From: Flavobacterium sp. YJ01
GTDB lineage: Bacteria > Bacteroidota > Bacteroidia > Flavobacteriales > Flavobacteriaceae
Length of the DNA stretch: 64,000 nt
Assembly: GCF_029320955.1 (NCBI RefSeq)
Contig: NZ_CP119757.1
Location: 4,216,001-4,280,000, forward strand
Direction: 5' to 3'
Below, one piece after another: positions 1 to 12,590 of this stretch. A program made the position numbers and the translations under genes. Within the stretch, counting starts at the first letter, position 1, and each line of letters starts with the position of its first letter. Below the pieces are notes generated by a model that was not told where the DNA came from, did no database searches, and saw nothing but the letters and a program-made list of their open reading frames with translations.

Positions 1-65
1 AATGTCTACTAATTCTATAGAGTATATCTAATATGAAAAATAAGTTTAATTTTAATAAAGGTCAA

Positions 66-107
66 ATGCACGCAAACATGCGAATGTGCTGCTGTTGTTG
101 TTGCTAA
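66..107 (+). CDS. Polycysteine leader peptide (13 aa)
   Basis: A 14-codon ORF reads MHANMRMCCCCCC and then TAA, with six consecutive Cys codons (TGC TGC TGT TGT TGT TGC) directly before the stop. A purine-rich AAAGG lies a few bases upstream. It ends 53 bases before the dioxygenase start. Runs of a single amino acid in a short upstream ORF are the hallmark of ribosome-mediated attenuation, and polycysteine leaders responding to cysteine supply are known in actinobacteria. Attenuation here is inferred: I see no clear terminator hairpin between 107 and 161, so control could instead act through coupling or mRNA stability. A chance ORF is possible, but six Cys codons ending exactly at a stop is unlikely by chance. 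Confidence 0.6.
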   Translation: MHANMRMCCCCCC

Positions 108-8326: not shown

Positions 8327-9760
8327 ATGAAAAAGATAAAAATTACAGCAATTATCCTATTACTAACAGGAATTACAATTTCCTGCACAGGAAGTTACGA
8401 AGAGCTTAACGAGAATCCCAACCTTATTACAGAGATAAGTCCGGGAACTTTGTTAAATCCTATTATTTACGGAATTGCTTCTCAGAATGCCTCTCAAAGT
8501 GTAGATGTTACTTTCAATTTAATGCAGGTTTCACTTCCTTTTCCAAGTATTACAGGAGGTTTACACCGTTATGATGTAAGCAACAATATTGGAAACTCAG
8601 CATGGAATAATTATTACAAATGGCTAAACAATATCAGAGAAATGCGAATGGCTTCAGTAAAAGCTGGAGACGGCAATTACGAAGCCGTTGCATTAACCCT
8701 TAATGCTTTGGTGTACGCCAATCTTACAGATCTTTTTGGTCCAGTTCCTATGACTGAAGCAGCGCGTGGAGAAGATGGAATTTTGTACCCAAAGTATGAT
8801 ACGCAAGAGTTTATTTATGAAACAATTTTGGCAGATTTAGAAAGAGCCAATACACTTTATGATACAAGTAAAGCAATGATTTATACCGAAGATATTCTGT
8901 TTCAAAATAATGTTTTGAAATGGAAGAAATTCACCAATTCTCTAAAAATGAGATTGCTTTTACGAGTTTCTAATAGAACAGAAACAGGAGCTTTTGCAAA
9001 ACTAGCCTATATGGCAGATCATCCTGAAGTTTATCCTGTTTTTACAAATACTGCTGAAAGTGCTATTTTAAAAATTACAGGAGTTGCGCCAAATGTTTCT
9101 CCGTGGGGCAGACCTCAAGATTTTAACCTGAATATCAAAATGGCTTCTTTCTTTATTGATAATTTGAATACGCTTGAAGATCCGAGAAGAGCCATAATTG
9201 CAACTGGTGCTACAGCTTTGGTTACCAATGCACCAATCGGATTTAAAGGAATTACAAGTGCTTATGCTGGTTCAGATTCTCAGTTCAAATACAATGCTTC
9301 AACACTTTATAATGTGCAGGTACAAAACCCAATGCAGATATTTCTTTTAACGTATGCTGAGGTTGAATTTATTAAAGCAGAATTAGCGCAACGTGGTCTT
9401 ATTGCAGATGCTGCAGGACATTATGAAAAAGGAGTAAGAGCAGGCATAGAACAATTAAAAGCTACAACTCCAACCACTTATTTCAATAAACCAGAAGCGC
9501 AATATGATGGAACTTTAGAAAGGATAATGTTGCAAAAGTATTATGCTTTATATTTTACAGATTATCAGCAATGGTTTGAATATCGCAGAACAGGCTTTCC
9601 TGTACTGCCAACAACAACCGCAATGTTAAACAATGGAGTTATGCCGTCAAGGTTTACTTATCCGGATAATCAGCAAATCAAGAATACCGAAAACTATCAT
9701 AAAGCAGTTGAAATGGTTGGAGGAGATAATATCAATACAAAAGTTTGGTGGGATAAATAA
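8327..9760 (+). CDS. SusD/RagB family outer membrane lipoprotein
   Basis: A 477-residue lipoprotein with a type II signal (ITISC, lipidated Cys20) followed by the YEELNENPN motif common in the SusD-like_2 group. It is helical and TPR-like in composition, with the C-terminal YYALYFTDYQQWFEYRRTG segment typical of these proteins. It acts as the ligand-binding lid of the SusC partner just upstream. It belongs to the shorter SusD-like_2 branch rather than the canonical starch-type SusD, and such proteins occur in loci for non-glycan ligands too. Transcribed with SusC and the two phosphoesterases. Confidence 0.9.
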   Translation: MKKIKITAIILLLTGITISCTGSYEELNENPNLITEISPGTLLNPIIYGIASQNASQSVDVTFNLMQVSLPFPSITGGLHRYDVSNNIGNSAWNNYYKWLNNIREMRMASVKAGDGNYEAVALTLNALVYANLTDLFGPVPMTEAARGEDGILYPKYDTQEFIYETILADLERANTLYDTSKAMIYTEDILFQNNVLKWKKFTNSLKMRLLLRVSNRTETGAFAKLAYMADHPEVYPVFTNTAESAILKITGVAPNVSPWGRPQDFNLNIKMASFFIDNLNTLEDPRRAIIATGATALVTNAPIGFKGITSAYAGSDSQFKYNASTLYNVQVQNPMQIFLLTYAEVEFIKAELAQRGLIADAAGHYEKGVRAGIEQLKATTPTTYFNKPEAQYDGTLERIMLQKYYALYFTDYQQWFEYRRTGFPVLPTTTAMLNNGVMPSRFTYPDNQQIKNTENYHKAVEMVGGDNINTKVWWDK

Positions 9761-9770
9761 AAAGTAAAAG

Positions 9771-11345
9771 ATGAAAAAGACATTTATATATAGCGCAATA
9801 CTGTTTTGTGGTGTTTTAACAGCGCAAACAACCGTAAAAGGAATCGTATTTGAAGATTTAAATCAAAATGGTAAAAAGGAAAAAAAAGAAAAAGGAATTG
9901 CAAATGTTGCCGTAACAAACGGTCGAGAAGTTGTTGTAACCGATAAAAAAGGAAACTACGAATTGCCATTGCAAAACGATGCCATTATTGCCGTAATCAA
10001 ACCTTCTGGGTATAAAATTCAGGTTAATAAAGATAATCTGCCTCAGTTCTTCTATAATCATAAACCAGCGGGTTCTCCTAAAGGAAAGTTTGAGGGAGTT
10101 GCACCAACAGGAAAATTGCCAGAATCTGTAGATTTTGGATTGCTTCCGCAGAAGGAGACCAATGATTTTACGGCTCTTATTTTTGGAGATCCGCAGCCTT
10201 ATAATCTAGAAGAAGTTGATTTTTTTGCGAGAGGAATTGTTGCCGAAGTTGAAGGCATTAAAAACATTCCGTTTGGATTAAGTATGGGAGATTTGGTTGG
10301 AAACGATCTTAGCTTATTCAATCCATACATTCAAGCAGTAAAAAAAATCGGAATTCCGTGGTACAATCTTTTAGGAAACCATGATTTAAATTTTGATGCC
10401 AAAGAAGATAATTTGGCAGATGAAACCTACGAAGCTCATTTCGGACCTGCAAATTATGCTTTCAATTACGGAAAAGTGCATTTTATTGTAGTTGACGATG
10501 TTTTGTATCCAGATCCAAGAGATCATGAAGGATATTGGGGCGGATTTACAGACGAACAAATGCAGTTTATTGCAAACGATCTTAAAACAGTTCCAAAAGA
10601 CAATTTAATTGTGTTGGCTTTCCATATTCCGATAAGCGAACCTGACAGTAAAGACGATTCTTTTAGAGATGAAGACCGTCAAAAATTATTTGAATTGTTG
10701 AAAGATTTCCCAAATACACTTTCGCTTTCGGCGCATACACACATGCAAAGACAAGATTTTTTCGAAAAGAAAGATGGCTGGTTACAGGAAACTCCACATC
10801 ATCATTATAATATCGGAACAACATCTGGCGATTGGTATTCAGGAAAATTAGATGAGAAAGGAATTCCAATTTCGGTTATGCGAGACGGAACTCCAAAAGG
10901 TTATGCTTTCATTCATTTTAATGGAAATAAATATACTGTCGATTATAAAGTAGCGGGAAAACCAGAAAATTATCAAATGAAAGTTTTTGCTCCAAAAGTG
11001 GTAGCCAAAGCAAAACGCACCAAATCTGGCGTATTTGCCAATTTTTTCATGGGAAGTAAAAAAGACAAAGTTCTTTACCGAGTAGATCAAGGAGATTGGA
11101 AAGAAATGGAATATGTAGAAGTGCAAGATCCATCTTATGTAGAATTGGTTTACGAATGGGAATTATCTGAAGTGCTTATGCCTGGAAAACGTTCTTCAGA
11201 TCCTGAAAAAAGTACGCACGTATGGAGAGGAAATATTCCTTCTGATCTTGCTATCGGAGAACATGCAATTGAGATTAAAGCGACAGATATGTTTGGTAAA
11301 ACGCATACTGCAAATACGACTTACAGAATTGATAAAGTGAAATAA
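9771..11345 (+). CDS. Calcineurin-like metallophosphoesterase
   Basis: A 524-residue secreted enzyme: signal peptide (about 1-18), N-terminal beta-sandwich domain (about 20-110, VFEDLNQNGKKEKKEKG), a calcineurin-type phosphoesterase core (about 130-360), and a C-terminal accessory domain (about 370-520). Metal ligands appear in FGDPQPY (Gln in place of the usual His of GDxH), MGDLVGND, GNHD, AFHIP and SAHTH. The GDPQ variant is common in this domain arrangement. It probably removes phosphate from an ester brought in or trimmed by the operon. It is 10 bases after susD and one base before the glycerophosphodiesterase start, so the two hydrolases are made together and may act in sequence. Confidence 0.9.
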   Translation: MKKTFIYSAILFCGVLTAQTTVKGIVFEDLNQNGKKEKKEKGIANVAVTNGREVVVTDKKGNYELPLQNDAIIAVIKPSGYKIQVNKDNLPQFFYNHKPAGSPKGKFEGVAPTGKLPESVDFGLLPQKETNDFTALIFGDPQPYNLEEVDFFARGIVAEVEGIKNIPFGLSMGDLVGNDLSLFNPYIQAVKKIGIPWYNLLGNHDLNFDAKEDNLADETYEAHFGPANYAFNYGKVHFIVVDDVLYPDPRDHEGYWGGFTDEQMQFIANDLKTVPKDNLIVLAFHIPISEPDSKDDSFRDEDRQKLFELLKDFPNTLSLSAHTHMQRQDFFEKKDGWLQETPHHHYNIGTTSGDWYSGKLDEKGIPISVMRDGTPKGYAFIHFNGNKYTVDYKVAGKPENYQMKVFAPKVVAKAKRTKSGVFANFFMGSKKDKVLYRVDQGDWKEMEYVEVQDPSYVELVYEWELSEVLMPGKRSSDPEKSTHVWRGNIPSDLAIGEHAIEIKATDMFGKTHTANTTYRIDKVK

Positions 11346-11346
11346 A

Positions 11347-12255
11347 ATGCTAAAATTCAAAAAGATACTCTTTGTTTTAACGGCTGTATTATGTTCATAT
11401 TTCGGTAATAGCCAAAATGCAATTGCATCGAAAAGAACGATAGAAGTACAGGGACATCGCGGCGATCGCGGTAATTTTCCTGAGAATTCTATTCCAGCTT
11501 TTATAAGTGCTGTAAAAAAAGGTGCAGATGTTGTAGAATTGGATGTCGTGATTTCTAAAGACAAGAAAGTAATTGTTTCTCATGAGTCTTTTATGTCTTC
11601 GCAATATATGCTTGATAGCGAAGGAAATCCAATTACTAAGGAAAAAGAAAAGAGTTATAACCTATACGAAATGACGTATGACAGCATTAGAAAATTTGAC
11701 GGCGGTTCAAAAGGAAATACTGCTTTCCCGATGCAGCAGAAACAAAAAACGTATAAGCCTTTATTGTCAGAAGTTATAGATAATGTTGAAGAGTTTATTG
11801 CCAAAAACAATTTGAAACCAGTTCGATACAATATCGAAATCAAATCTGAAAAATCGGATTACGGCAAAAGACAACCAGAACCAGAAGCTTTTACAGATTT
11901 GGTGATGAAAATCATTAAAGAAAAACGTGTCGAAAAGAAAATCAACATTCAATCTTTTGATCCGACTGTTTTAAATGTGATGCACAAAAGATATCCAAAA
12001 ACAAAAATTGCTTATTTGGTTGGAGAAGGCAGCATAGCTAAAAATCTCTCTCTGCTTGATTTTAAACCAGAAATTTACAGTCCGCATTATAAATTGTTAA
12101 ACCAAACAGAAGTCGATTCACTTCGATTGATGAAGATGAAAATTATTCCTTGGACCGTTAATGATGACAAAGCAATTGACAATATGATACAGCTTCAGGT
12201 AGACGGAATAATTACGGACTATCCTGAAAATGTATTGCAAAAACTGAATTTGTAA
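11347..12255 (+). CDS. Glycerophosphodiester phosphodiesterase
   Basis: A 302-residue secreted enzyme of the GDPD family (TIM barrel, Ca2+-dependent), which splits glycerophosphodiesters into an alcohol and glycerol 3-phosphate. Visible motifs are QGHRGDRGNFPENS with catalytic HRG, VELDVVISKD with the metal-binding ExD, VSHE with the second catalytic His, YNIEIKSE, and the closing PWTVND and GIITDYPE. A signal peptide (about residues 1-22) places it in the periplasm or outside. It follows the calcineurin-type phosphoesterase by one base. The pair suggests stepwise use of deacylated phospholipid head groups such as glycerophosphoinositol (inference). Confidence 0.92.
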   Translation: MLKFKKILFVLTAVLCSYFGNSQNAIASKRTIEVQGHRGDRGNFPENSIPAFISAVKKGADVVELDVVISKDKKVIVSHESFMSSQYMLDSEGNPITKEKEKSYNLYEMTYDSIRKFDGGSKGNTAFPMQQKQKTYKPLLSEVIDNVEEFIAKNNLKPVRYNIEIKSEKSDYGKRQPEPEAFTDLVMKIIKEKRVEKKINIQSFDPTVLNVMHKRYPKTKIAYLVGEGSIAKNLSLLDFKPEIYSPHYKLLNQTEVDSLRLMKMKIIPWTVNDDKAIDNMIQLQVDGIITDYPENVLQKLNL

Positions 12256-12296
12256 AACAATATTTTTTGAATAATTAATTTAATAAAGAAAATTTA

Positions 12297-12590
12297 ATGA
12301 ATGGAATAAGCGCCAGAGAGCATCGGACTATTGCGGCGGCCTTTGATAAATTTGAATCTATGTCTTCGGTATTTTCTTATGTATTAGAAGAATCACAAGA
12401 TTCAGAGATTCGAGAAGGCATGGAATCGCTGGAAAAGTTATATGAGCAGTATAATAAGCTTTACAGTGAACTCGAAAAATGTATTAAAGAATATGAAGGA
12501 AAGAAAAAAAGAGTGAGAATGGCTGTAAATAAAGGAAACCGAAAATTGCTTTCTGAATTGCAAAAAAATCCACCGCTATTAAATTTTTAA
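12297..12590 (+). CDS. Small coiled-coil protein of unknown function
   Basis: A 97-residue, highly charged, soluble protein with no signal peptide. A long amphipathic helix from about residue 35 to 80 (EGMESLEKLYEQYNKLYSEL, then KCIKEYEGKKKRVR) predicts a coiled coil. I do not recognise the family. It lies 41 bases behind the glycerophosphodiesterase and before a terminator at 12620-12650, so it may be the last gene of the sigma-controlled operon or a separately expressed gene. Confidence 0.6.
   Translation: MNGISAREHRTIAAAFDKFESMSSVFSYVLEESQDSEIREGMESLEKLYEQYNKLYSELEKCIKEYEGKKKRVRMAVNKGNRKLLSELQKNPPLLNF

Follow-up and report, generated by a model that had tools for sequence, protein, structure and literature searches.

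Organization of the locus

The window analyzed here, a 64,000-nucleotide stretch of the Flavobacterium sp. YJ01 genome, carries near its first position a short open reading frame (ORF) that runs into a series of cysteine codons and is followed by a tight operon of four genes, all on the forward strand. Positions 66-107 read ATG CAC GCA AAC ATG CGA ATG, then six TGY codons (87-104) and a TAA stop (105-107). The first-pass annotation described a 13-residue ORF with six terminal Cys residues. The Cys codons and the stop stand as described, but an ATG at position 33 lies in the same frame and yields MKNKFNFNKGQMHANMRMCCCCCC*, an ORF of 24 codons (33-107) that is conserved in relatives. Translation probably starts at 33 rather than at the alternative in-frame start at 66, in which case the 13-residue version would be the 3′ part only. 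The leader peptide has zero matches in NCBIfam, and comparison with Rfam gave no meaningful score, the single match (E = 0.69) being to a family of human lncRNAs and falling short of the gathering score of that family.

The 53 nucleotides (108-160) that the earlier annotation placed between this ORF and a PhyH dioxygenase gene can be read directly from the sequence. That gene (161-967) encodes a PhyH-family Fe(II)/2-oxoglutarate dioxygenase of 268 amino acids (PF05721, E = 1.1e-14), in which the residues of the HxD...H iron site (H140, D142, and H222) are invariant in 13 sequences. It is followed by a small reading frame of 49 amino acids without assigned function (970-1119), a CDP-alcohol phosphatidyltransferase of 228 amino acids (1122-1808; PF01066, E = 1.4e-07), and a GtrA/DPMS-type membrane protein of 143 amino acids (1810-2241; PF04138, E = 5.7e-15). 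A fold search with a structure model of PhyH (pLDDT 66.5) returned only the general 2-oxoglutarate oxygenase fold, and its sequence has a single weak match among PDB entries. For the transferase, NCBIfam models resembling phosphatidylinositol-phosphate synthase scored far below their cut-off.

All 688 residues of the four proteins are free of Cys (P = 0.008 at the rate of the window), and PhyH lacks Cys in all unique orthologs (65/65 and 24/24). We considered a sulfur-sparing operon and set the idea aside as weakly supported, given that six of the 31 ORFs in the window are also Cys-free and that the transferase and GtrA proteins of relatives often contain Cys.

A short-chain dehydrogenase (SDR) gene lies just 5′ of the operon in Flavobacterium and in most Pedobacter loci. 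Its frame is broken in the YJ01 genome (from position 9157 of L005 onward, just 5′ of the window), and relatives include some with an intact copy. Because an SDR gene is found 3′ of PhyH in 14 of 23 more distant homologs (among L225-L246), the arrangement suggests that PhyH and the SDR form a functional pair.

Conservation of the cysteine run

Four TGY codons followed by a stop occur four times in the 5.48-Mb YJ01 genome, and only the occurrence in the PhyH leader has an in-frame ATG. The stricter pattern ATG-Arg-ATG-(TGY)3 is present once per genome in 8 of 150 genomes of the genus, each time directly 5′ of PhyH, and its reversed control matched nowhere in the same 150 genomes. The association with PhyH holds when the gene itself is the starting point. 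Protein searches (E ≤ 1e-30) identified PhyH in 35 of 299 genomes of the genus, and all 35 carry a leader with four to nine consecutive Cys codons and an in-frame ATG. A species-wide scan with one genome per species gave at least 567 confirmed PhyH loci. Among the best 80 of these 567, comprising 56 Flavobacterium-type and 24 Pedobacter-type loci, a run of three to nine Cys codons with a preceding in-frame ATG is present in 80/80. In both surveys the leader frame was taken to be that of the longest TGY run upstream of PhyH (140 to 40 nucleotides upstream in the same-genus set, 300 to 20 in the species scan). The search upstream of PhyH genes that the first-pass annotation had proposed thus finds the Cys run kept in related genomes, and the leader is evidently more than a product of chance.

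Leader and operon are alike in the Pedobacter loci, where most leaders conform to M[SY]NKT..FYF..PNHS.MRMCCCCA*. Of 396 genomes sampled across the class, 40 encode PhyH at E ≤ 1e-80, ten of which yielded no locus. Seven genomes of this sample have a Cys-run leader, four from the same genus, two Pedobacter-like, and one from another genus. The last (locus L223) represents a third genus-level variant, MRMPFAKRVLCSCCC*, which retains only the Cys end. Among the 23 more distant PhyH homologs with a locus, none has a Cys-run leader, with the gene start misplaced in at least five, and one is preceded by an unrelated CC-containing mini-ORF. Given that these distant homologs are without it, the leader is an acquisition of one branch.

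In 18 of the 35 Flavobacterium genomes (L102-L105, L111-L114, and others), the leader frame continues beyond the Cys codons and stops 43 nucleotides inside PhyH, in a different frame from that gene. The possibility that this long form specifies a second peptide was rejected, as its pN/pS of 1.3-1.6 bears no sign of selection.

Selection on the leader peptide

The run of six Cys codons (87-104), which we propose to be a sensor of charged Cys-tRNA, is strongly constrained. Across 61 Flavobacterium sequences, pN/pS is 0.05 for the six codons after the MxM motif (with pS saturated), and the N-terminal part gives 0.83 in Flavobacterium and 0.56 in Pedobacter. PhyH itself has a pN/pS of 0.08. Codons within the run toggle between TGT and TGC (261 and 145) with almost no other swaps. 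Cys is thus retained as an amino acid, with most of the peptide close to free. This pattern, in which Cys is kept as the rest of the peptide drifts, suits a sensor of tRNA more than a peptide with a function of its own.

It is nevertheless worth considering that the peptide itself acts, either by binding a metal or a thiol or as the precursor of a RiPP that is tailored by PhyH. The peptide is rich in Met, His, and Cys and adjoins a 2-oxoglutarate oxygenase, and the ATG-CGA-ATG ahead of the Cys run is kept in both genera. However, an N-terminus that is nearly unconstrained (the pN/pS of 0.83) is not the conserved leader of a RiPP precursor, the number of Cys residues varies from three to nine, and NCBIfam holds no matching family. 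Furthermore, PhyH homologs lacking the peptide are common, and a similar Cys end is seen on peptides of no relation to it, encoded 5′ of SusC and metY genes. With modification genes considered within the operon, we regard an acting peptide as highly improbable.

One feature next to the run is a puzzle. Wherever the codon before the run (window 81-86 and its counterparts in relatives) specifies Arg, it is CGA, in 40/40 and 22/22 or altogether 62/62 sequences, and CGA is rare in PhyH, accounting for 11/777 and 19/302 Arg codons.

A promoter element common to PhyH and sulfate assimilation genes

Promoter comparison revealed a conserved 20-bp element, TCTACTAATTCTATAGAGTA, at positions 5-24 (+). 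The sequence TAcaTTTG just before the window is presumably a Bacteroidetes-type −7-like box, to judge from the promoter consensus. Since this box lies 8 nucleotides before the element, the predicted transcription start is about 30 nucleotides upstream of the ATG at 33, and the element, which is the probable operator of a sulfur regulator, would be just 3′ of it. A strict regular expression finds the element in 34 of the 35 same-genus PhyH promoters, and a relaxed match finds it in 54/56 Flavobacterium-type and 24/24 Pedobacter-type loci. The 8-nucleotide spacing from the TTTG box is kept in 40/56 and 24/24 promoters of the two types.

The YJ01 genome has three exact matches to the element, namely in the PhyH promoter, in the promoter of cysH-cysD-cysN (2359035), and at 5456577, where msrA and a SufS-like gene flank the site. 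The PhyH and cys sites served to define the pattern, and these two matches are not independent of it. The same 8-nucleotide spacing separates element and TTTG box in the cysH-cysD-cysN promoter. Allowing up to two mismatches, 12 genomes contain 145 sites compared with 49 for the reversed pattern, so that about a third may be chance. Weaker matches precede an O-acetylhomoserine sulfhydrylase gene and two SusC genes, one of which is followed by sulfatase-like genes. A gene some 1.1 kb away from the cys site (2360189-2360599) reaches the cut-off of the Rrf2 superfamily; against CymR (NF047409), the closest named NCBIfam model, it scores 78.1 bits, below the cut-off of 195.

Because the element is common to the PhyH and cysH-cysD-cysN promoters and the latter lies beside an Rrf2 gene, the PhyH operon is probably a member of a sulfur regulon. 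This bears out the connection to sulfur metabolism that the first-pass annotation had anticipated. The tie to sulfonolipids that it also suggested would be speculative; the Pedobacter loci share both leader and operon. By the same reasoning from the promoter site held in common with the sulfate-assimilation operon, the transcriptional layer of control is probably set by a sulfur regulator, of the CymR-like Rrf2 type.

Perhaps, then, only the DNA element matters, with a sulfur regulator controlling transcription and the Cys run a by-product of a conserved 5′ untranslated region (UTR). The element is indeed kept at least as widely as the run (the 54/56 and 24/24 loci given above). However, the third codon base toggles between T and C within the run as the amino acid stays constant, and all loci read preserve the Cys frame with its ATG even though the position of the run and the sequence downstream of it vary. 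We judge this explanation to be very unlikely.

The spacer and a predicted RNA hairpin

The spacer between leader and PhyH (108-160) is almost free of G, with none in its last 50 nucleotides. The G content of the spacer is 2.2% in Flavobacterium and 1.5% in Pedobacter, compared with 12.9% upstream of the 31 ORFs of the window, and its C content is 10% and 22%, respectively. A terminator scan of L005 from 9500 to 12400 gave one terminator-like match, located in the upstream SDR region, and none between leader and PhyH. By itself the spacer of Flavobacterium folds less than its shuffles do (mean z of +1.53). We therefore rejected a classical transcription attenuator, in which an antiterminator competes with a terminator and T tract.

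These features invite a different form of attenuation with the same sensor, in which Rho loads onto the G-free spacer once the ribosome has left the leader and ends transcription unless a ribosome stalled on the Cys codons shields it. Such a mode might operate in Pedobacter. It would accord with the lack of an intrinsic terminator between leader and PhyH and with a spacer that is nearly G-free in both genera, at the C contents given above. However, the spacer measures only about 44-58 nucleotides, which would be short for a rut site, and G-poor gene starts are common in this group. Moreover, Rho would leave the complementarity between leader and spacer in Flavobacterium unexplained. Even with the precedent that the same mode has been proposed for mycobacterial Cys leaders, in the part of that literature consulted (PMC1262725), we consider Rho-dependent control of the operon unlikely.

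That complementarity takes the form of a long predicted hairpin. Averaged pair probabilities for Flavobacterium place its 5′ arm at 7-61 (core 29-61), in the 5′ UTR and first leader codons, and its 3′ arm at 109-166 (core 109-148), in the spacer and the start of PhyH, with 162-166 pairing with 7-11. The PhyH start would thus be included in the hairpin and the Cys codons would occupy its loop. Duplexes between the 5′ half of the leader and the spacer are more stable than those of separately shuffled arms (z < −2) in 30/39 short-form and 21/26 long-form Flavobacterium sequences, compared with only 1/24 in Pedobacter. The cells of the hairpin are paired in 89.3% of cases, compared with 42.7-51.2% in slid controls.

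Evolutionary evidence for the pairing is less clear. Two-sided changes affect 6 pairs and 12 cells. These numbers exceed what column shuffles give (28 and 11 of 500) but stay within the range of slid controls (4-9 pairs and 7-18 cells), and the sequences counted are those that had yielded the structure. RNAalifold gave zero consensus pairs for 48 Flavobacterium sequences (47/56 loci plus the window, aligned with MAFFT), and for 22 of the 24 Pedobacter loci it gave local hairpins only, with an unfavorable covariation term; in both alignments, loci were omitted for offset starts, near-identity, or convenience. In the window the PhyH start is paired in both the minimum-free-energy and the centroid structure, and this fold alone is mildly stable (z = −1.45, with 17 of 200 shuffles equally stable). 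Overall, the long leader-spacer hairpin is plausible in Flavobacterium, and true covariation in its favor is weak. The earlier statement that there is no antiterminator hairpin therefore holds for the classical terminator/antiterminator arrangement, but it overlooks the possible long hairpin that joins leader, spacer, and PhyH start in this genus.

We also considered a general hairpin just before the Cys codons and rejected it, since z falls below −1.5 in 17/24 Pedobacter sequences but in only 4/39 and 0/26 Flavobacterium sequences. A small hairpin of variable sequence is seen directly 5′ of the Cys codons in L178, L223, and Pedobacter loci.

Cysteine-codon mini-ORFs at other genes

Short ORFs with Cys codons are not confined to PhyH. 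In the YJ01 genome, the O-acetylhomoserine sulfhydrylase gene metY (L094, 2370003-2370760, minus strand) is preceded by two tandem Cys/Met-rich mini-ORFs, MNLVAKNMCCMMSELSAE* and MKNSTVNKMMMCCKMPMCIQSCCCQK*. Judged by eye, both have a terminator-like hairpin and its T run directly 3′ of them. All ten same-genus metY loci have a Cys mini-ORF; among other metY loci three are without one and six were not parsed. SusC genes of the genus that have the promoter element form a second group. There, 8 of 13 parsed loci (17 fetched) have a mini-ORF of the form MK..C(2-4)[KR]*, and Cys-containing mini-ORFs of other kinds occur in three further loci. Because Cys mini-ORFs stand independently before metY and SusC, cysteine sensing is the most economical reading.

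Several individual loci deserve mention. Two SusC genes of the YJ01 genome, at 4518371 and 335182 (L097 and L096), have the upstream mini-ORFs MKTMQTCCCK* and MKKRMCR*, with Cys near the end. The SusC mini-ORFs (L096, L097, and L247-L263) are followed by a CCATTTCTG...CAGAAATGG hairpin, the 3′ side of which contains the start of another mini-ORF. One Pedobacter genome (G691, locus L198) has a second leader, MRMCCCYA*, 5′ of a SusC-like gene. At 4304802-4305188 of the YJ01 genome (L098), two Cys-containing mini-ORFs, MKNYSRNIMMSFNCSFAMCCMLNHVLKWR* and MRTNRNMKILMRRCLIKIPCCVNFKR*, are separated by a terminator-like hairpin and precede a gene that, from its reading, we take to be Glu/Leu-dehydrogenase-like.

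A proposed mechanism for cysteine sensing

We consider it likely that the leader gauges how much charged Cys-tRNA is available and governs the PhyH operon, with translation the most probable level of control, through a hairpin that sequesters the start and a queue of ribosomes that opens it. The two parts of this proposal differ in strength. Cysteine sensing by the leader is well supported by inference, and the hairpin switch is only moderately supported by the folding predictions.

In the resting mRNA of Flavobacterium, the spacer and PhyH start would be base-paired with a stretch that spans the 5′ UTR and the leader's first half, leaving the Cys codons looped out. When Cys-tRNA is ample, ribosomes would finish the leader and depart, the hairpin would re-form, and PhyH would be off. 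When Cys-tRNA is scarce, a ribosome would stall within the Cys run, and those lined up upstream of it would mask the 5′ arm and free the PhyH start. The queue would be a needed step, as the 5′ arm ends about 25 nucleotides upstream of the Cys codons and the stalled ribosome itself would not reach it. We infer leader translation, the cysteine response, its direction, and queueing from the arrangement of these elements. If they hold, the leader probably lets the bacteria turn the operon on when cysteine is short.

For the long-form leaders (18/35), ribosomes passing the PhyH start would fit a lower rate of PhyH initiation at ample cysteine. Pedobacter is without the long pairing and would therefore need a different read-out, perhaps one that involves Rho.

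Relation to known systems and significance

The classical trp and his attenuators have a leader ORF with codons for the regulated amino acid. Both the metY and the PhyH leaders would share this trait, but the terminator-like hairpins and T runs seen by eye at metY are lacking at PhyH. In translational attenuators of the ermC type, a stalled leader ribosome opens a hairpin that hides a downstream start. The PhyH leader would be alike in having a start-hiding hairpin that is opened by stalling, with the differences that the proposed signal is uncharged tRNA and that queued ribosomes would mask the 5′ arm.

Polycysteine ORFs in mycobacteria that are leaderless were reportedly described by Canestrari in 2020. 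The Flavobacterium ORF would not be leaderless, judged by its predicted start site. Cysteine leader peptides are known from Actinobacteria, and the portion of the published account consulted (PMC1262725) supports several comparisons. Like those leaders, the Flavobacterium leader is a short ORF with a terminal Cys run that lies just 5′ of a probably sulfur-linked operon and has no terminator hairpin. Unlike those leaders, which belong to another phylum, it precedes a dioxygenase and lipid-type enzymes, and it has a possible long leader-spacer hairpin and a preceding DNA element of sulfur type. The link of the Flavobacterium operon to sulfur consists of the common promoter element only, its genes being PhyH, CDP-alcohol transferase, and GtrA by Pfam. 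In Rhodobacterales, uORFC-8-2 precedes cysS and has been proposed to sense Cys-tRNA through tandem Cys codons; as portrayed in the sections of that report consulted (PMC8632094), its Cys codons number only two and it is accompanied by an intrinsic terminator, whereas the PhyH leader has three to nine Cys codons and no terminator. Within the Bacteroidota, the literature searched, as far as excerpts convey it, describes no Cys-codon leaders. The nearest report is a Flavobacterium psychrophilum transcriptome whose consulted parts give clues to leader peptides before amino-acid biosynthesis operons, with cysteine unnamed (PMC9723704).

Taken as a whole, the leader is real and conserved, and it is very probably responsive to cysteine. 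More tentatively, and with somewhat more doubt than confidence, we propose that Bacteroidota have a two-layer response to sulfur supply, in which a promoter site for an Rrf2-type repressor is combined with Cys-codon leaders in the mRNA (poly-Cys, Cys/Met-rich, or tandem mini-ORFs). At least two read-outs would be in use, intrinsic terminators at metY and a translational hairpin opened by queued ribosomes at PhyH, and the dioxygenase/CDP-alcohol operon would be under cysteine control, possibly for remodeling of envelope lipids or for release of sulfur in times of scarcity.

If cysteine sensing by the leader is true, then a genetically tractable genus would offer an attenuator that works without a terminator, and an uncharacterized operon of dioxygenase and phospholipid-type enzymes would be tied to the response to sulfur supply. 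The leader would also be a convenient marker of genes that respond to sulfur supply.
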